Shown: piece by piece, positions 50,042 through 64,000 of the stretch
How the letters are laid out: each line of letters opens with the position of its first letter
Position numbering within the stretch: the first letter of the stretch is position 1
Origin: Streptomyces sp. Q6
GTDB lineage: Bacteria; Actinomycetota; Actinomycetes; Streptomycetales; Streptomycetaceae
DNA length: 64,000 nt
NCBI RefSeq assembly: GCF_036967205.1
Contig: NZ_CP146023.1
Coordinates: forward strand, 124,001-188,000
Direction of reading: 5' to 3'
The notes under the pieces: model-generated
Seen by the model: only the letters and a program-made list of their open reading frames with translations
Databases searched by the model: none
What the model was told of the DNA's origin: nothing
Program-made: the position numbers and the translations under genes

Positions 50042-50089
50042 CCCGTCCGGGCGGTACAGCGCGCGGGGGTGTGCCGGGTTCCGTGCTGC

Positions 50090-50464
50090 TCAGGTCCGCC
50101 AGGAGCGCAGGCGGTCGGCGATGTCGTAGACGGTGAGCCGCAGGGCCCGGATGTCGGTGATGAGGTCCCGCCACGGCTCATAGGAGTGGTCGACGCTCTC
50201 GCCGCAAGCTTCGATGTAGGCGATGGCGACGCCGTAGCCGAAGTACTCGTTGCGCGCGGGCAGCGGGCGCAGCAGCACGATCTGCTCCAGCAGGGCCGCG
50301 GCCCGCCAGTAGGCGTCGGGCGAACTCTCGTCCAGCTGAGGGGTGTTGACCCGGTGGCGGGCCACCGCGGCGACCAGGGCCGAGTAGTCGAGTACGGCGA
50401 GGTCTTTGCCGAGGAGGTCCTCCTGGCGGTCAAGCAGCCACCGGATGTCGATCGTCAGGTCCAA
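50090..50464 (-). CDS. Fic/Doc-like toxin of a type II toxin-antitoxin pair
   Basis: 124 residues matching the streptomycete Fic-family toxin component: LTIDIRWLLDRQEDLLGK, YSALVAAVARHRVNTPQL, AAALLEQIVLLRPLPARNEY and FGYGVAIAYIEACGE. The canonical HPFxxGNKR motif is degenerate: the His is missing (RPLPARNEY), so AMP-transferase activity may be lost or altered. It follows the antitoxin gene by 3 bp. Confidence 0.75.
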   Translation of the reverse strand: MDLTIDIRWLLDRQEDLLGKDLAVLDYSALVAAVARHRVNTPQLDESSPDAYWRAAALLEQIVLLRPLPARNEYFGYGVAIAYIEACGESVDHSYEPWRDLITDIRALRLTVYDIADRLRSWRT

Positions 50465-50467
50465 GGG

Positions 50468-50710
50468 TCAGGCCGCCTGCCGCGCCGCGCGCGTCGGCAG
50501 TCCGCCGAAGTCGCGGTCGAATGCCTCCGCGATGCCTGGCTGCGACACGGCGTCCCGGAAGGAGGCCGTGGCCCGCCCGAGCTTGAGCTGGTTCTCCTGC
50601 TCGATGGCCAGCTCGGTGATGTAGGAGCGCATGCTCTGGCCGTGCTCCGCGGCGAGAGCGGCCAGCCGGTCCCGGGTCTCTGTGTCGATCTTGAGGGTGG
50701 TGTCAGCCAT
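50468..50710 (-). CDS. Ribbon-helix-helix antitoxin
   Basis: 80 residues. N-terminal RHH: ADTTLKIDTETRDRLAALAA, EHGQSMRSYITELAIEQ; the C-terminal part (ASFRDAVSQPGIAEAFDRDF) would wrap the toxin. ATG 50710; longer frames have no ribosome site. It precedes the Fic-like toxin by 3 bp, the standard antitoxin-first order. Confidence 0.75.
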   Translation of the reverse strand: MADTTLKIDTETRDRLAALAAEHGQSMRSYITELAIEQENQLKLGRATASFRDAVSQPGIAEAFDRDFGGLPTRAARQAA

Positions 50711-50729
50711 GACTTGAGCATACTGGAGC

Positions 50730-50751
50730 GAATACCTCTGTGAATACCTCT
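50730..50751. promoter_or_regulatory. Direct repeats upstream of the antitoxin, likely operator
   Basis: GAATACCTCT occurs twice 12 bp apart (50730-50739 and 50742-50751), 20 bp upstream of the antitoxin ATG. RHH antitoxins usually bind spaced direct or inverted repeats over their own promoter. Confidence 0.55.
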
Positions 50752-53700
50752 CGGGAGAATGAGACCGAGCGCTTGGCTCCTGCCGGTCAGGGGCGGGCGG
50801 CGCAACCACGGCGGAGCCGCTCAAGGGCATCGCCGAGGCCAGGACCCGCCGAATTTCATTGAACACTCAATGACTTCTGTCAGAGCCATCGAGAGCGCGA
50901 ACCCCGGAGCACCGATTTCCCGGAATCAGCCCCTACAGAGGTCAGGTCCGAGGCGAACCGTCCGGACCCCTCCCCCACGTCACGCTCGCGAACCGAGCCC
51001 GTTTCCGGTCCCGCCGCCCCCAGGCCCAAAAGGGGAGCCCAAGCGGGACCACTCCCCCGCCGCCCCCACATCCGCATGCGGGACAGCGGGCCACGGCGGC
51101 GGGTCAACACCCGGAGGGCACGAACATTCCCCCGGCCGCCCGGTCTCAACTCTCCGCGCATGGAGCGTGCCCCTGGCGCGTCAGTCCCGGACGTCCGTGC
51201 CGGTTGGCGCCGAAGGGGGTCGCCCCTCGGAAAGCCGCGGCCCCGGGCGTAGTCGTCCTGCGATCGGTCACCATCGTGACCAGCCTCGGGCCCCCGGCCG
51301 TCGCACACCCCGGAATGTCGCGGCACGAAACAGCCAACGGCAGACGCAGAAAACACGCCGACGACGGTCCTGCCCTCTCCGGACGAGCTGCGGCAGCGAA
51401 GCACAGTTTTGGAGGCACCGGCGAGCAGGAGGCGAGCGAAACGTCTGAACGTCTGGCGGCGGACACGGTCGCGCGGTCTTGGGTATCGGCTGCTGAGCCC
51501 CGGGCCGTGCACGCTTCCCAGCACGCACAGTTGATGCACGCGCTGCCGTACGGTCCTCCTCAGCTAATCAGCACCGCCGAAGGACGCCGGGTGAAGCCTG
51601 TCGGCCGCAGCGGCCACGGCTCCCCATCACGGTGGCCGGACTCTGCCGCGAATGCGAACCCTCGCAGCCGAGGACGGCCACAGGACGCGCCGTGCTCGGA
51701 CTTGTCACAGATGACGAACCACAGATCGACCTGGCCACGGCCCTTCACGGACCGACAAGTCCGCGACCGGCACTCCCCCACTGGTTCTTGCTCCTGCCCT
51801 CAGCGACTTGTCGCACAACACGCCTTGAGCACGCGTCAGCAGCGCACGCCCACCACGCAATCATCTGGAGCGGCAGCTCGCAGGCCAGCGTGCCAGACAC
51901 CCTGCAGGACCGTCGCTGCCCGCGGCAATCGACCGTCGATCCGACGCCAACAGGGGCGACTGCTCACCTGCCTCCCGGCTTCCTGATCCGCACCGCGACA
52001 TACACGACCGTCACGGCCGGAGGGCACAAGTCGCGGACCAATCCACAGCAGAACTGTGCTTGCTCCAACAGGCTCAGTAAGCCGGCGAGAGACCTCAGCC
52101 CGGTAATGACCGTGCGCGACCCCGCGGCCTGATCCAGCGTCGTTCCACCCCGCATGGCAGGTTCAGATCGTCCGAACGCCTGCGCAGGCTGAAGGAGCAT
52201 CACGATCGAGGCGTACGAGCTGACCACCCGGCTTTGGAGAACTCTCGGCTGGAGCACCTCGGAATTTCCTGGTCTATCAGCCCCCTTCAGCACCCTTACC
52301 GACCCGCCCTAGGGGCTTGAGGATCAGGGCGCGGAGGACGCCCATGGACCAACGCACCCGGCATCCGAGGCCCTTGACTCATGACAGCGTTTCAATCTCT
52401 TCAACCCGCTGACATCACCACCACCTTGGCGACTCTTAGCATCGCCAATACACAGCCTCACGATCAGTTACGATGGCTCAAGTTGAGGTTAGAAACACCC
52501 TCTGACCTGCGGAAACAAACAATCCTGCAAACATCGCCACCCATTGACGAGCAAACATGGAAGGAGGGGTTGTGACACACACTGGGTTCCACCTTGAAGC
52601 CTGTCGCTGGCAAGGCCACAGGATCAACGTAACCACATGTGAATCTCAAGGCGTGAGCAATCGTGCAGAGTTGAGCTTTGAGGCACCCCACTGCAACCAC
52701 CTCTCCATGGGCATTGCCGTTAGCCAGTTTGCGAGTACACCAGGGGGCTGCTGTGCCGGTTGGCATCCAGGCAGAAGGGCAGACCTGCCTATAAGTGCGC
52801 ACGGTAACCAGGAAGCGGGCTGGCATGTCCACCTGCGTCAAGGGTTCGTGGGCTGCACGTACGTCGACCGGCCCAACTGCGCGTACGTCACCCTGAATAC
52901 ACGCAGGCGGACGGGCACGCCGATCGGTCGGTCGGAGGGTTGGCCGGGGTACCGACATCGAGGCACGCCCGCTCGCCCGGTTGCAGGCAGGACGAAGGGC
53001 GGGCAGACGCACCGGTGCAGCCGCCTGCTTCCCAGCAGGCACGTTTGCCGGTCTGCGCACAGGAACACAGGCTGGCCACACCACCTGCCTCACCACCGCA
53101 CTGCAACGATGACTCCACATCAACCCACATGCAGGAACGCCTCTCTGTCTCGGCACAGGCCCGCATCCGTGTTCCCTGATGCGTCTGCAACTCGGCCGGT
53201 CAACCCATACGTCTGCAGGGGAGGACACGAAATCGCAAGTACAGGGAAAGGCCTGAGTGCTTGCACGCCTCCCTGCCCACCCGTCGCCAACCCGGCAAGT
53301 ACGTCTGAAGACAGGCACTTTGACCGGCCCGCCCACCCAATCGTCGGCTGGTCACCGGATCCGAATCCTGGCAGGCCGTGCGGCAGGACGACCGCCCGGT
53401 TCCCCCACCGGGTCACGAGCTCGCGAACCTCCAGGTCCGGCAGTCGGCCGCACAGCTGATACGGCGATACCCCGGAGAGTGAGCCACAAGGCATGAAGGA
53501 CGGTCGGCTCCCCACCAGACGAAGCAGTGGAACGGGCCGCACGATCGGGTGCAGGCTCGCATACCCCTCGGAATCCTTGCCCGGAAGCCGGTCTGACGGC
53601 GTGTCCGGTCACACGGTGCTCCATATCCCTGGTAGCGTGATCACCGCTTTGTGGCACAACTGCTCTGGAGGTGAATGTTCTTGTGGAAGCGTCAGCTGAT

Positions 53701-55863: not shown

Positions 55864-56724
55864 TCACTCTGCGCCGTGGTCACCGGGCTCGTAGGGCGGG
55901 ATCGTCCAGCGCATCGTTGCCTGGCCCGTGGGGCCAGGCTGAAGGGTCACGGGATAGACCTGTCCGAAGCTGCGTTGGCCGCGATGTCTCATCGAGTGGT
56001 CGCCGCTGGCCCAGTTGATTCCCAGCACTGGGCAGTCGGCGACCTCGACGGCGCCGATCCGAAGCGGGTGCGTCCAGCTCGCCCGGTTGAAGCGGTGGAA
56101 GTCGGTGTGCTCGTCGACTGCGACCATGACGCCCCGGCCCTGTTCGTCGCCTTCCCAGCCGTTGAGGGCGTCGCCGAGCTTCTTGGCGTCATCGAGCGGG
56201 AGGTCCAGCCACCCTCGCACTTGGCTGCCATGTCGCGAGACCATGTCTCCGCCGAACTGACGATGGGCGGCCTCCGCGTGGGCTCCCCAGTAGGCGACGT
56301 CGGCAAGGCCGTCGGTTGAGGGGTGGCCGTCTCCGGTCCAGGAGTCCAGGGCCAGTGCGTCACCGAGCACCATGCCGCAACGGTCGACCGGTAGGTCGCC
56401 AAGGATGATCGGCTCGTCCCCGGCGGTGCCTGTCCAGAGCAGACCGAGATCGATCTCAAGGACTGCGATGGTTGGCCCTCCGTCGAAGGGCGACGGCGCC
56501 ATGCCAGCCCGCACCATCAACGGCTTGTCACTGACGGCGCGAACTGCGGCCATCTCACACATCCAGTCGTGGACGTGTCCGCCGCCGACCGATGCCGCGG
56601 CACTTGCGCGTACGGACAGCGGTTGGCCCAGCTGCGGCCAGTAGTCGATCCACGACGCCATCCCCAACACAAGGACTCCCGACGGCGCTGTCACGATTCC
56701 CAGGTCAATGTCACTCTCAGCCAT
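55864..56724 (-). CDS. Protein of unknown function (286 aa)
   Basis: Predicted soluble protein: IDLGIVTAPSGVLVLGMASW, IDYWPQLGQPLSVRASAAAS, VLEIDLGLLWTGTAGDEPII and RSFGQVYPVTLQPGPTGQAT. I do not recognise the family. ATG 56724 was chosen because homology-like content begins there and a longer frame to 56934 runs into a transposable element end. The 2.9-kb element begins 50 bp upstream of this start and probably disturbs its promoter. Confidence 0.65.
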   Translation of the reverse strand: MAESDIDLGIVTAPSGVLVLGMASWIDYWPQLGQPLSVRASAAASVGGGHVHDWMCEMAAVRAVSDKPLMVRAGMAPSPFDGGPTIAVLEIDLGLLWTGTAGDEPIILGDLPVDRCGMVLGDALALDSWTGDGHPSTDGLADVAYWGAHAEAAHRQFGGDMVSRHGSQVRGWLDLPLDDAKKLGDALNGWEGDEQGRGVMVAVDEHTDFHRFNRASWTHPLRIGAVEVADCPVLGINWASGDHSMRHRGQRSFGQVYPVTLQPGPTGQATMRWTIPPYEPGDHGAE

Positions 56725-56773
56725 CCGGCGATGGAACCTTCCTCTTGCTCTCAGGATCAAGGTCCGCTGGGTC

Positions 56774-56782
56774 AACGCCTTT
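56774..56782. repeat. 9-bp target duplication AACGCCTTT, left
   Basis: Identical to 59693-59701, directly outside the two terminal inverted repeats of the 2.9-kb element. Confidence 0.85.
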
Positions 56783-56948
56783 GGGTGCGGTTCCTTTGAA
56801 GTGACGATCGGGATCATGCGGCGAGGCCGCTCAAAGAAGGAACGGACGGTGGGTGGGCCGGGACGGCCGCCTGGTGGTCGCGGGTCACCATTAACCGATT
56901 GTTTACTTTGCCCTGGTTTCCGCGTGCGGATCATGTCGTTGGCCGGGT

Positions 56949-57043
56949 ATGACGATCAACATGAGCTGGCAGGTCCAGGACGGTCCGCGGCGCGCGCTTC
57001 GTTCGCAGGCGCTCACCGGGATCCTCTTCCGGGACGGCGATTC
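56949..57043 (+). pseudogene. Acyl-CoA oxidase-like gene, N-terminal part
   Basis: ATG 56949 gives MTINMSWQVQDGPRRALRSQ, then ALTGILFRDGD and the IS insertion. Excising 57044-57914 and one TC restores GAT TCG GGG CCC GAC in frame (DSGPD), joining it to the main part. AT-rich DNA before the start (CATTAACCGATTGTTTACTT near 56890) is a possible promoter. Confidence 0.85.
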
Positions 57044-57914
57044 AAGCGTGTTGCACAAGGCGGTGTTCGGGCAGGTCAGGGTTAGTGAGGGCAGTCCTCT
57101 GGTCATGAGGCGAGGGCGAGGTTGTGCATCTGGGCGACGGCTTGGACGGCGTGGTGAAGGCCGTCGCCGTGCTGCCGGCAGTCGCGGAGGATCTTGTAGT
57201 TCTTCATCCGGCCGATCACATGCTCCACCCGGGCCCGCACCGTGCGATGGGCGGCGTTGTCGGCCTCCTCGCCCGCCAGCAGCTCGCGTCGGGGGCGTTT
57301 GCGGTGCGGGGTGACCATCCCGCAGTTGAGGTAGGCACCGTCGGCCAGCATGGTCACGCCCTGGCAGTGCTGGGCCAGGCCGGAGGCCCGCCAGGCGTGC
57401 GCGTCCGCGGTGGTGCCCGGCACCGGCCGGGCCGCGGCGATCACGAGACGGGTGTCGGCATCCACAATGACCTGCACGTTTGCGGAGAACCGGTAGTTGC
57501 GTGAGGAGGAGCCGACGTGCCGGTCGCGGACCGGGATGAGGGTGCCGTCCACGATCCACAACCGGTCCGCCGCGTCGGCCGGACGGGCCACCGGCTCCAG
57601 CGCGAGCAGCGGGCCGAGCTTCTGGATCACCCGGCACACGGTCGAGGAAGAGGTCCCGAACAGCGGCCCGAGCTGCCGCATGGTCAGGTTGGTGCGGTAG
57701 TACACGGCCACGATCAAGACCCGTTCGGCCAGCGGCAGACACCACGGACGGCCCCGCAGCGTGCCGTTGCCGCCTCGGTCACGGACCACCCTCAGCAGCC
57801 GCCCGAACTGCTCCATCGACAGCCCCGTGAACGTCTCCACCCACACCCGTTCAGCCCTCAACACCCCAGCCATACACCGGATATGCCCAGTTCACGGCCT
57901 TGTGCAACACGCTT
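57044..57914. mobile_element. IS5-family insertion sequence
   Basis: 871 bp with terminal inverted repeats whose first 18 bases are identical (AAGCGTGTTGCACAAGGC) and extend imperfectly. It is flanked by a 2-bp duplication TC (57042-57043 and 57915-57916). It encodes one DDE transposase on the minus strand. It splits the acyl-CoA oxidase gene. Confidence 0.92.
57103..57873 (-). CDS. IS5-family DDE transposase
   Basis: 256 residues. N-terminal HTH region (LTMRQLGPLFGTSSSTVCRV), then DDE_Tnp_4-like catalytic core: Asp in LWIVDGTLIPVRDRHVG, Asp in GVTMLADGAYLNCGM and Glu in ARVEHVIGRMKNYKIL. ATG 57873; stop 57103. It appears intact, so the IS may be active. Confidence 0.93.
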   Translation of the reverse strand: MAGVLRAERVWVETFTGLSMEQFGRLLRVVRDRGGNGTLRGRPWCLPLAERVLIVAVYYRTNLTMRQLGPLFGTSSSTVCRVIQKLGPLLALEPVARPADAADRLWIVDGTLIPVRDRHVGSSSRNYRFSANVQVIVDADTRLVIAAARPVPGTTADAHAWRASGLAQHCQGVTMLADGAYLNCGMVTPHRKRPRRELLAGEEADNAAHRTVRARVEHVIGRMKNYKILRDCRQHGDGLHHAVQAVAQMHNLALAS

Positions 57915-59648
57915 TCGGGGCCCGACCTCCATGCGGCGTGGCGCAAGGCGATTTCGACGGACCTGTTCCGCCACCGTACCGACCTGTATGTCGAGGAGCG
58001 ATGGCAACAGTCGTATGACCGGCTGCGGGCCCTGAACGAGGAAGTGCTGTGCGTGCAGGATCTGGCCCGGGACCCGCGCGCGCTGGCCGCCCTGCACGAG
58101 TGGGCTTCGGTGGTGGACGGGGCCACGGCGACGGTGGCGGGCATCCACTACAACCTCTTCCTCGGCAGCCTCCTCGACGACGACGTGTCCCCCGCCCGCA
58201 ACTTGGCCGAGTTCACCGCACTGGCGGCCACCGGGACCTTCCTGTGCACCGAGCACGCGCATGGCAACGATGCGGCGGCGCTGGAGACCATCGCTCGCTA
58301 CGACCGTGAGCGGGACGGGTTCGTGCTGCACACCCCGCACGAGGGCGCGCGGAAGTACATGCCCAACACCAGCCCCGCGGGCGGACCGAAGACCGCGGTG
58401 GTCGCGGCGCGGCTGGTGGTCGACGACCGGGACGAGGGCGTCTTCCTCTTCCTCACCCCGCTCAGCGACCAGCGCGGAACCCTGCCGGGCGTGACAGTGA
58501 CGATGCTGCCGGACCGGATCGGCAGCCCGGTGGACCACTGTGTCACCAGCTTCGACCACGTGCGCCTGCCCCGAACCGCACTGCTCCAGGGCGCGCACGG
58601 ACGGCTCACGGACGAGGGCATCTTCACCAGCGCCTTGGGCAGTCCGCGCAAACGGTTCCTGCATGCCATCCGCCGGGTGACGGTCGGCAAGCTGTGTATG
58701 AGTGCGAGCACTCTGGGCGGCAGCCGTGCGGCGCTGGCGATCGCGGTGCGTTACGCGTACCTGCGTCACATCTCTGGGCCGGTGGCCGGAGAGCGCGTCC
58801 AACTGGCGGCACACCGCAGCCACCATGCCCGTCTCCTGTCCTGCGCGGCCACCGTCTACGCCATGACCTTCCTGCACCGGGTCGTCACCGAACGCTGGAT
58901 CACCCACGGCCCCGAGGACGAGGCGGAAGCAGCCCGGCTGGTGGCGATGGCCAAGGGCTGGATCACCTGGCAGGCCCGCGACATCACCACGGAGGCCCGC
59001 GAACGGTGCGGCGCCCGCGCGCTGTTCCCTGTGAACGGCCTCGCCGAATTCACCGCGAACGCCGATGGCGCCATCACCGCAGAGGGCGACAACCTGGCTA
59101 TCTGGTGCAAAGCGGGAGCCGAGATGATCTTCGGGCACGCAGCCGCCCCGGAACCGGAGACGGCGGCGACCGGTCAGGAGTCCCTGACCGACCCCGCCTT
59201 CCTGCGCCGCGCGTTGGCCGCCGCCGAACGCTACTGGCACCTGACCGCGCGCCGCGACGTCCGAGGCGGTACAGGCGATGCGCTCGGGCGCTGGAACCAT
59301 GCCTCCGCCGCGGCCCTCGCCCTGGTCGAGACCTACACGCTGGGCCAGGCCGCCGACGCCTTCGCCTCGGCTTGCTCCCAGGTCACCGACCCCGATACCC
59401 GCGCCGCCCTGGAAGATCTGCGCACCCTGTTCCTGCTCGACCGGCTGGCCCCGATCAGCGGACTCCTGCTGGCCGAGGGCGTCCTTAGCGCCGATCAGGT
59501 CCGCTCCCTCCCCGACACGGTGCGCAACCTGACAGTGAGGCTTGCGCCGCATCTGACGGCCCTGACGGAGGCATTCGACGTGCCCGAGGAGCACTTGGCG
59601 TCGCTGCCGATGCTGACTGAGAGGACCTCGCCCCGACGCGAATCATGA
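57915..59648 (+). pseudogene. Acyl-CoA oxidase-like gene, main part (interrupted)
   Basis: 577 codons of acyl-CoA dehydrogenase/oxidase sequence: YDRLRALNEEVLCVQDLAR, GIHYNLFLGSLLDDDVSPAR, FLCTEHAHGNDAAALETIAR, KYMPNTSPAGGPKTAVVAAR, DHCVTSFDHVRLPRTALLQG, HISGPVAGERVQLAAHRSHH and ARERCGARALFPVNGLAEF. It resembles acyl-CoA oxidases such as Aco of the avenolide pathway in Streptomyces, but other acyl-CoA oxidases cannot be excluded. A chance TTG at 57900 inside the IS end could start translation of a shortened protein. Confidence 0.85.
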
Positions 59649-59692
59649 CTGACCCACGCCGTCCCGACGGTCACTTCAAAGGATCCACACCC

Positions 59693-59701
59693 AACGCCTT
59701 T
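59693..59701. repeat. 9-bp target duplication AACGCCTTT, right
   Basis: Second copy of the duplication seen at 56774-56782. Confidence 0.85.
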
Positions 59702-61860: not shown

Positions 61861-62916
61861 GTGCCCCGCGAGACCGCGACTTCTGCCGTGCATGCCGTGC
61901 ACGAGGTGGCCCGCTGGTGCGCCCGGGCAGGTTGGCCAGTCCACCCCCTGGCCCCCCGCCAGAAAGTCCCCCCGGCCAACTGCGGCGCCTGCAAGGCGGA
62001 CCGGCACGCGCCGGCCGACTGTCCGTGTCGCACGCAGGGCCGCTGGTGCCACGGGTTCCACGCCGCGACCACGGATCCCGCTCTGATCGACGCTTGGTGG
62101 GGCGCTCAGCCCCGCTTCGGGGTCGGTGTCTCCTGCGGTCCGGCCGACCTCGTGGTTCTCGACGTCGACGCGCATGCCGCGCAGGTCCCCGACCGCTCGC
62201 GCCTGCTGCCCGGGATCCCGATCGGCCCCCAGGTCGATCTGGCGGGCCTGGCCACCGGTTTTGACACGCTCGCCCTGCTTGCCGCGCTGCGAGGACAGCC
62301 CAGCCCCGCAGAGGACGAGACCACTCTGAGAGTGCGTACTCCCTCGGGCGGGGTGCACGTCTGGTACACCAACCCCGATCCGCGCATCCGCTATCGCTCT
62401 TCCACCGGCTCCAGCCCGAAGACCGCGCTGGCCTGGCAGGTCGATGTCCGGGCCGACAACGGCTACATCGTTGCGCCTGCCACCCGCACCACCGCCGGGA
62501 GCTACCGCCCCCTGGGCACCGCCCGCACCCCGGCCTTGCTGCCCGACTGGCTTGCCGCGGAGCTCGTGCGCACCGGCCATGTCCCGCCCTCGCCCGCAGC
62601 CGCACCGGTGCCGGTACCGCGGCGCAGCCGGCCGGGCAAGGGCGCCGACCGGCTGCTCGCTCCGCTTCTCGCCGAAGTCGCCGCATGCGCCGCCGTACCG
62701 GAAGGCGCGAGCTTCTCCGAGAAGCTCAACCGTGCCGCCTACACCGTCGGCGGACTGACCGCGGGTGGGTATCTCACGGAGGCCGAGGGCCTGGCCCTGC
62801 TGTGGGACGTGGCGCGCACCGCCCGCCCCGGCCAGGAACGCCGCAGCCGCACGATCATCGAGTCCGCTCTGTCCGCCGGCGCCCAGCGCCCGCTCCATCC
62901 CCGAGGACGCTCATGA
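61861..62916 (+). CDS. Bifunctional primase-polymerase (prim-pol) domain protein
   Basis: 351 residues. A prim-pol domain: VARWCARAGWPVHPLAPRQK, AWWGAQPRFGVGVSCGPADL, VVLDVDAHA (catalytic acids), RTPSGGVHVWYTNPDP (His) and AWQVDVRADNGYIVAPATRT. Cys-rich NCGACKADRHAPADCPC is a likely zinc site. Typical replication protein of actinomycete plasmids and integrative elements. GTG 61861 follows AAGGA. It overlaps the helicase gene by 4 bp. Confidence 0.88.
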   Translation: MPRETATSAVHAVHEVARWCARAGWPVHPLAPRQKVPPANCGACKADRHAPADCPCRTQGRWCHGFHAATTDPALIDAWWGAQPRFGVGVSCGPADLVVLDVDAHAAQVPDRSRLLPGIPIGPQVDLAGLATGFDTLALLAALRGQPSPAEDETTLRVRTPSGGVHVWYTNPDPRIRYRSSTGSSPKTALAWQVDVRADNGYIVAPATRTTAGSYRPLGTARTPALLPDWLAAELVRTGHVPPSPAAAPVPVPRRSRPGKGADRLLAPLLAEVAACAAVPEGASFSEKLNRAAYTVGGLTAGGYLTEAEGLALLWDVARTARPGQERRSRTIIESALSAGAQRPLHPRGRS

Positions 62917-64000
62917 GCGCCGAACCGCCCGCCCGCTTCGACGCGGAAGCCGCAGCAGCGCAGATCAACCAGCAGGCCCTCGACTTCCCCCTGCCGGCGC
63001 CGCATCATCCCCAACTGCCCGCGCAGCAGCGCGACCAGAGCCCCGTTTCCGAAACGTCCCAGCCAGGTTTCGTACCGGACTCTCTCACCGACCGGGGCAA
63101 CGCCAAGCTCTTCGCCCGGCTCTACTCCGACCAGTTCCGCTATGTGCTCGGGATGGGCTGGCACACCTGGGACACCTACCGCTGGAAACTCACCGGGGGA
63201 GAGGAAGCCGCCGTTTGGGCGGCGGGGGAGATGGCCGAGCAAATCGGCGACCGCGACCCCTCCGGCCGCTTCACCGACCGTCAGGTCGCTGCCCACCGCC
63301 GCCACTCCGAGTCGACCTCCGGGGTCAAGGCCATGCTTTACCAGGCGCAGGCGGCCCCGGCGCTGCGGCTGGACCCCGACCTGCTCGACGGCGACAACTA
63401 CGCCCTGTGCACCCCGTCCGGCGTCGTCGACTTGCGCACCGGGGTGTTGCGCAAGCCGAACCCGCTGACCGACATGCACTCGCGGGCCACCACCGTCGCA
63501 CCACAGAAGATGCCGGTCCCGCGCTGGCACAACTTCCTGGCCGACACTTTCGGCGACGACTCCCGGGGCGAGGAGACCATCCGGTTCCTGCACCTGCTCC
63601 TCGGCTACTCCATCACCGGAGACGTCGGCGCCCAGGTCCTGCCTTTTTTGTACGGGTCCGGGGCCAACGGCAAGTCCGTCCTGCTGGAAGTCACCATGCA
63701 GATCCTCGGCGACTACGCCAATGCCGCGCCGCCTGGATTCCTCATGGAGAAGGGCAAGTTCACCGAGCACTCGACGGAATTGACCGAGCTGCACGGGCGC
63801 CGCATCGTGGTGTGCTCCGAACTCAAGCCCAATGACAAGTTCAACGAGGCTCGTGTCAAACTGCTCACGGGCGGCGACACCATCACAGCCCGCCGCATGC
63901 GGCAGAACTTCTTCACATTCACGCCCACGCACAAGCTGTGGCTGCTCGGCAATCATCGCCCGGAGGTCGGTACCGGCGGGCACGCGTTCTGGCGCCGTAT
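62913..64000 (+). CDS. P4/D5-type replicative helicase, N-terminal part (runs off right edge)
   Basis: The frame starts at ATG 62913, overlapping the prim-pol stop (ATGA), and stays open to the edge. Visible parts: D5_N-like domain (NYALCTPSGVVDLRTGVLRK, HNFLADTFGDDSRGEETIRF), Walker A LYGSGANGKSVLLEVT and the later VVCSELKPNDKFNEARVKLL and TARRMRQNFFTFTPTHKLWL. It is an SF3-type plasmid or phage helicase that should unwind the adjacent origin. Confidence 0.9.
   Translation, partial: MSAEPPARFDAEAAAAQINQQALDFPLPAPHHPQLPAQQRDQSPVSETSQPGFVPDSLTDRGNAKLFARLYSDQFRYVLGMGWHTWDTYRWKLTGGEEAAVWAAGEMAEQIGDRDPSGRFTDRQVAAHRRHSESTSGVKAMLYQAQAAPALRLDPDLLDGDNYALCTPSGVVDLRTGVLRKPNPLTDMHSRATTVAPQKMPVPRWHNFLADTFGDDSRGEETIRFLHLLLGYSITGDVGAQVLPFLYGSGANGKSVLLEVTMQILGDYANAAPPGFLMEKGKFTEHSTELTELHGRRIVVCSELKPNDKFNEARVKLLTGGDTITARRMRQNFFTFTPTHKLWLLGNHRPEVGTGGHAFWRR

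Follow-up and report, generated by a model that had tools for sequence, protein, structure and literature searches.

A transposase-free element with ISKra4-like ends around an interrupted acyl-CoA oxidase gene on a putative Streptomyces plasmid

The window, i.e. the whole stretch of 64,000 nucleotides analysed here, is part of replicon C2 (385,579 bp) within a Streptomyces genome of 8.95 Mb. The presence of ParA-like and primase genes in the window, and the matches of its flanks to Streptomyces plasmids, are the reasons for regarding C2 as a plasmid. The element that concerns us spans 2,910 bp (56783-59692), a later insertion included (Table 1). Of the 31 positions of its terminal inverted repeats 27 are identical, and the 9-bp sequence AACGCCTTT adjoins both of them on the outer side as a perfect direct repeat. 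The original prediction, which was made from the sequence alone, had described inverted repeats at 56783 and 59670 with 21 of 23 matches and a perfect 9-bp repeat around them. Both kinds of repeat are found as placed, and the 21 matches are correct for those 23 bp, but the true length of the inverted repeats is 31 bp. In the whole window, one place combines a perfect 9-bp repeat with inverted repeats next to it that match at 19 or more of 23 positions; when the window was resampled 60 times with a first-order Markov model, no such arrangement arose at a threshold of 18 of 23. With a loose threshold (15 of 23), 33 chance arrangements were counted in 20 resamples versus 3 in the real window. The evidence for a real element is the long repeat together with the empty sites described below.

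Table 1. Coordinates of the element, its cargo and the adjacent host gene in the window.
Feature	Position	Strand	Basis or remark
Hypothetical host gene beside the insertion	55864..56724	-	L046 CDS 3060-3920
Left copy of the 9-bp target duplication AACGCCTTT	56774..56782		Sequence and empty sites in relatives
Left terminal inverted repeat, ISKra4 (ISSri1-like) type, 31 bp	56783..56813	+	Agrees with the transposase-3' ends of nine autonomous elements at 20 to 29 of 31 positions
14 bp past the left repeat, alignable to ISKra4 transposase-3' subterminal DNA	56814..56827	+	
Acyl-CoA oxidase-like gene, 5' piece of about 31 codons	56949..57043	+	Weak tblastn match; DNA match to L085
Later IS5-type element, 871 bp	57044..57914	-	Transposase ORF 57103-57873 (-)
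Acyl-CoA oxidase-like gene, 3' piece, open to the stop codon	57915..59648	+	
Right terminal inverted repeat, 31 bp	59662..59692	-	
Right copy of the 9-bp target duplication AACGCCTTT	59693..59701		

In two related plasmids the same locus lacks the insert and has the target once, so the element is a real insertion that was accompanied by a 9-bp duplication; empty sites of this kind had been named in the original prediction as something to look for. In plasmid NZ_CP108566.1 of Streptomyces sp. NBC_01201 (L046) the left flank is 92% identical as far as the junction, where the right flank follows directly (83% over 47 bp). The single target copy there, AGCGCCTGT, has 2 differences from AACGCCTTT, and there is one base fewer just after the target. 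Plasmid NZ_CP120989.1 (L047) has the same empty site by inspection, its right flank being below the blastn reporting threshold used. The element is located about 50-60 bp upstream of the start codon of a hypothetical host gene, the start being that of the annotation of the relative L046, in which it is about 50 bp away from the site. Promoter targeting has been reported for ISKra4 insertions (PMC3942029). A sigma-70 promoter scan of positions 56650-57060 gave no match, the sigma-70 consensus being a poor guide in Streptomyces.

The two primase genes of the window (61909-62913 and 62910-63998, the second of which runs past the window edge) are about 2.2 kb away from the cassette. We note that a replication module of Prim-Pol, P4-type primase and DUF6009 genes often adjoins butenolide-type aco-ScbR-CYP clusters; both primase genes were seen in 8 of the 14 cluster loci with at least about 9 kb of sequence (L098, L099, L100, L164-L167 and L185). 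No matches to ScbR or DUF6009 were found in the window.

The cargo of the element is an acyl-CoA oxidase-like gene, in which the domains PF22924 and PF01756 score above their cutoffs. The oxidases of the related loci L085, L086 and L087 align on both sides of the IS5-type element in the same frame. On the 5' side the match is weak (56955-57041, frame +3, E 0.011 to 0.17), and the three matches listed for the oxidase of L088 include none of this kind; at the DNA level positions 56936-57037 match L085 (70%, E 3e-5). The 3' piece keeps all of the 94 alignment columns that are invariant in 50 relatives (L066, L202 and L203 left out), which suggests that the gene was probably under selection until recently. 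The gene is not intact, because the IS5-type element sits inside the coding sequence near codon 31. In other words, the original prediction was right about the identity of the cargo and about its being a single gene, and did not take into account that a later IS splits it. The transposase of the inserted element matches DDE_Tnp_4 above the Pfam cutoff and the NCBIfam IS5 model with 90.3 bits, which is below the cutoff of 140. There are five copies of this element in the genome, about 100% identical to each other, with an apparent 2-bp duplication that is TC here and TA at the other four copies. DNA homology to seven orphan oxidase loci stays inside the ends of the cassette, extending at most from 56936 to 59617 and starting later than 56936 in all loci except L085; little beyond the coding region therefore seems to have been carried.

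The family of the ends was investigated by searching 392 genomes of the genus. A first search with a 19-bp pattern and 3 mismatches was too loose, since 287 of the 392 genomes matched; among ten regions from this search, ends led by GGGTGCGG are present in L036-L041 and absent from L042-L045. The end search proper found end-like sequences in 58 genomes, some of which may be chance matches, because a reversed control pattern matched in 14 genomes. Partner ends were looked for at 35 loci, namely the window, L083, L036 and 32 regions that represent part of all matches. By the first rule, 9 of the 35 loci have a pair of ends with a perfect 9-bp duplication, and further elements with a perfect duplication are L156 (by a laxer rule), L040 and, on plasmids, L213, L214, L215 and L217. 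At the remaining loci of the 35, the best-scoring partner ends were unconvincing or had no matching duplication. Elements with two ends and no matching duplication occur as well (e.g. L083, L134, L143, L152 and L216), so not every pair of ends marks a clean insertion. Moreover, a scan of genome contigs with the exact pattern gave eight loci, all in Streptomyces. Six of these (L176, L177, L179, L180, L182 and L183) were taken as falling in genomes already examined, and the further two (L178 and L181) both have ISKra4 transposase sequence, with no partner end that has a matching duplication.

Counting the window element, 15 elements thus combine ends of this type with a perfect 9-bp duplication. 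ISKra4 transposase sequence is present in 13 of the 15, all or nearly full length in 12 and split in L215; the window element and L036 are the two exceptions. Autonomous elements with the same ends, for which the original prediction had proposed a search, thus exist among these 13 transposase-bearing elements. With the ISKra4 model NF033572 (cutoff 205), the transposase of L038 reaches 347.6 bits and that of L040 341.3 bits, and L213 (pPZG101, NZ_MZ502219.1) is annotated as ISSri1, an ISKra4-like element. The inverted repeats of p-MULT elements are described as 18-39 bp long with a conserved terminal cytosine, and insertion of the ISKra4 family (p-MULT 4) as generating a direct repeat of 8 or 9 bp (PMC3942029). 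The window element has repeats of 31 bp of the form GGG...CCC, and a perfect 9-bp direct repeat together with the empty sites. On the basis of sequence similarity we assign its ends to the ISKra4 family of insertion sequences, and within it to the ISSri1 group.

Two further features of this group were seen. Upstream of their transposase, ISSri1-type elements have another, short ORF of about 175-186 aa (L040:4186-4746, L083:3700-4227, L213:5640-6167), for which there was no Pfam match. The ISKra4 element of L215 (L215:6001-10684, NZ_CP108116.1) is 4,684 bp long with the duplication GACTCACTT, and a reverse-transcriptase gene interrupts its transposase at codon 212/213, an arrangement that a group II intron could have produced.

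A tblastn search for ISKra4 transposase in the window element gave no match, and the only transposase inside it is that of the later IS5-type element. The element is therefore not an autonomous ISKra4 element but a derivative with ISKra4 ends, which bears out the prediction of a non-autonomous element that has one cargo gene and no transposase of its own. It consists of two IS-like inverted repeats within a target-site duplication, and a passenger gene takes the place of the transposase. A second cassette, L036 (in genome G057), is 2,156 bp long with the duplication ATTCGCGCT; its cargo is a cold-shock protein gene (PF00313), the transposase is represented by short relics only (residues 488-507 and 462-477), and it has likewise been invaded, in this case by an IS3-family element. 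Judged by their sequence anatomy, both elements are mobile insertion cassettes (MICs). For the window element, we consider the explanation as an ISKra4-type MIC highly probable. The steps would be that two ISKra4/ISSri1-like ends with no transposase came to enclose an orphan acyl-CoA oxidase gene, of a kind known on Streptomyces chromosomes, and that an ISKra4-family transposase acting in trans moved this cassette into the plasmid site, producing the 9-bp duplication. The IS5-type element inserted later, into a gene that may until then have been working.

Other copies of the cassette, whose existence the original prediction had raised, did not come to light. There is no second copy of the oxidase cassette in its own genome, and the plasmid matches to the oxidase stretch have at most 72.5% DNA identity among the best 40 of 245 records, from which records of the own genome were possibly left out. 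No end-like sequence with fewer than 10 mismatches in 31 was seen in the 17 oxidase loci L085-L101. As for a helper, there are four matches with ISKra4 transposase sequence in the own genome, all of them on C2. In the longest copy (50059-52918) the transposase is spread over two frames and a matching duplication is absent, and the other copy is partial and also in two pieces.

The types of the two ends give an indication of the route of capture. Compared with nine autonomous elements, the left end of the window element agrees with transposase-3' ends at 25.9 of 31 positions on average and the right end at 25.7, the corresponding values for 5' ends being 21.0 and 20.8. The same tendency is seen in L036, where each end scores 27.8 against transposase-3' ends and 21.8 against 5' ends; moreover, its right end keeps 79 bp of transposase-3' DNA (85% identical). 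The 3'-end similarity and this retained stretch mean that both ends of L036 come from the same IS end, and the sequence comparison firmly points to two copies of the transposase-3' end, as would be left after loss of the body in two inverted copies. For the window element the comparison is suggestive of two such copies.

The cassette may accordingly be the remnant of a composite transposon, i.e. two inverted ISKra4 copies would have flanked the gene and moved it by their outer 3' ends, after which their bodies were lost. The 3'-like character of both window ends speaks for this route, and so do the 79 bp and the transposase residues 488-507 and 462-477 left in L036. However, the homology of the window element past the repeats is limited to 14 bp on the left (a 45-bp match from 56783, 91% to L137 and 84% to L038), with none on the right, and the 5' end of the autonomous element L133 matches the window at 26 of 31 positions, which is nearly as similar as the 3' ends and leaves room for an ordinary two-ended ISKra4 derivative. 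We consider the chances of the composite route to be slightly below even; it is in any case a route to a cassette and not a different end state. A related piece of 412 bp (L135:6083-6494) has inverted transposase-3' relics at both ends, no cargo and no matching 9-bp duplication.

Whichever route was taken, the reading of the window element as an ISKra4-type MIC stays the same. A more general and rather tentative idea is that ISKra4 elements of the ISSri1 group repeatedly make single-gene cassettes bounded by two inverted transposase-3' ends in Streptomyces. The oxidase cassette and the cold-shock cassette of L036 fit it, with L135 as a cargo-free piece that has two 3' ends. If true, this would provide a route by which one gene at a time is captured between chromosomes and plasmids. 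The possible two-3'-end architecture is for us the most interesting point and is worth following.

According to the original prediction, the oxidase could act like Aco in butenolide (avenolide) signalling, in which case the element would be a mobile single-gene signalling cargo; such a cassette would spread the synthesis of a signal. The relationships of the oxidase were investigated with a tree of 54 rows, i.e. 49 from genomes (29 of the 30 top loci, the window's own locus being excluded, and 20 chosen further down the list), four plasmid loci and the window. The cluster rows of this tree stand for Aco by gene neighbourhood, characterised Aco being absent by name. It is conspicuous that the window oxidase falls into a 14-row orphan clade (support 100/100), i.e. 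outside the neighbouring receptor-linked group, in which an ScbR-like gene is present in 25 of 26 rows; for the remaining row, L072, the sequence covered was about 1.5 kb per side. The orphan clade is apparently sister to the oxidases of butenolide-type clusters, a position that is moderately supported (89/92 and 93/97) and depends on midpoint rooting. This sister position, the mean identity of 57.5% between the window oxidase and 25 oxidases located beside ScbR-like receptors, and the occurrence of aco-ScbR-CYP clusters on linear plasmids are what can be said in favour of signalling. On the other hand, an ScbR-like gene is absent in all 13 clade mates (12-19 kb examined, L087 and L095 being less than 1 kb from a contig end), no receptor or P450 gene was found in the window at E 1e-8, and one ScbR query detected distant TetR matches only, and no close ScbR, in the host genome (the best with 45% over 56 residues, E 1.4e-8).

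The upstream region tells the same story. The aco-receptor intergenic regions share a motif, a putative autoregulator-binding site; its leave-one-out score is at least 16.4 in 24 of the 25 cluster rows (-13.0 in one) and 4.7 at most in the 28 rows without ScbR. The cluster motif is absent from the window, where the score is 1.7, within that of its shuffles (95th percentile 5.8), for a stretch of 261 bp versus up to 450 bp in the others. Moreover, the gene is split by an IS. Neighbourhood, tree and upstream motif all led us to reject a butenolide-signalling cargo as unsupported; a mobile signalling gene is very unlikely, and the oxidase does not group with the receptor-linked oxidases.

That the repeats are regulator-binding sites or chance similarities rather than transposon ends can be dismissed with near certainty: repeats of lower quality are indeed common in the GC-rich DNA of the window, but this reading is contradicted by the empty sites in two relatives and by the closely similar ends of transposase-bearing elements with perfect duplications.

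We return to the reading of the window element as an ISKra4-type MIC and compare it with known systems. ISSri1 and related ISKra4-family insertion sequences of Streptomyces have closely similar ends and a 9-bp duplication as in the window; they also have a transposase and a small second ORF, and the window element has neither. No literature was found on ISSri1, and no published ISKra4 cassette was found by title or abstract opening in a search whose scope left most subscription journals outside. Passenger genes are not new in the ISKra4 group, because PMC3942029 reports that four ISKra4 elements have, next to their transposase, further genes whose function is unknown. As far as described there, those elements keep their transposase, whereas the window element and L036 do not. 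On the side of the cargo, Aco and ScyA1 of butenolide-type systems (PMC7670052) belong to the acyl-CoA oxidase family like the window oxidase, which differs from them in belonging to an orphan clade without receptor neighbours. The closest parallels in anatomy are MIC231 of Bacillus cereus and the qnrD mic element (PMC3913671), which resemble the window element in having IS-type repeats, a duplication, a passenger and no transposase. The original prediction did not know a mobile single-gene signalling cargo to be described; the general idea of a mobile cassette with a single gene is already on record as the MIC. MIC231 has IS231 ends, and MIC231A1 is reported in that source to be mobilised in trans by the IS231A transposase, whereas here the ends are of ISKra4 type, the cargo is an acyl-CoA oxidase gene and mobilisation in trans is a proposal. 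In the present case a single metabolic gene entered a Streptomyces plasmid as one unit by means of ISKra4-family ends, and it can be compared with empty sites and with a second cassette; it thus extends the MIC idea to the ISKra4 family.
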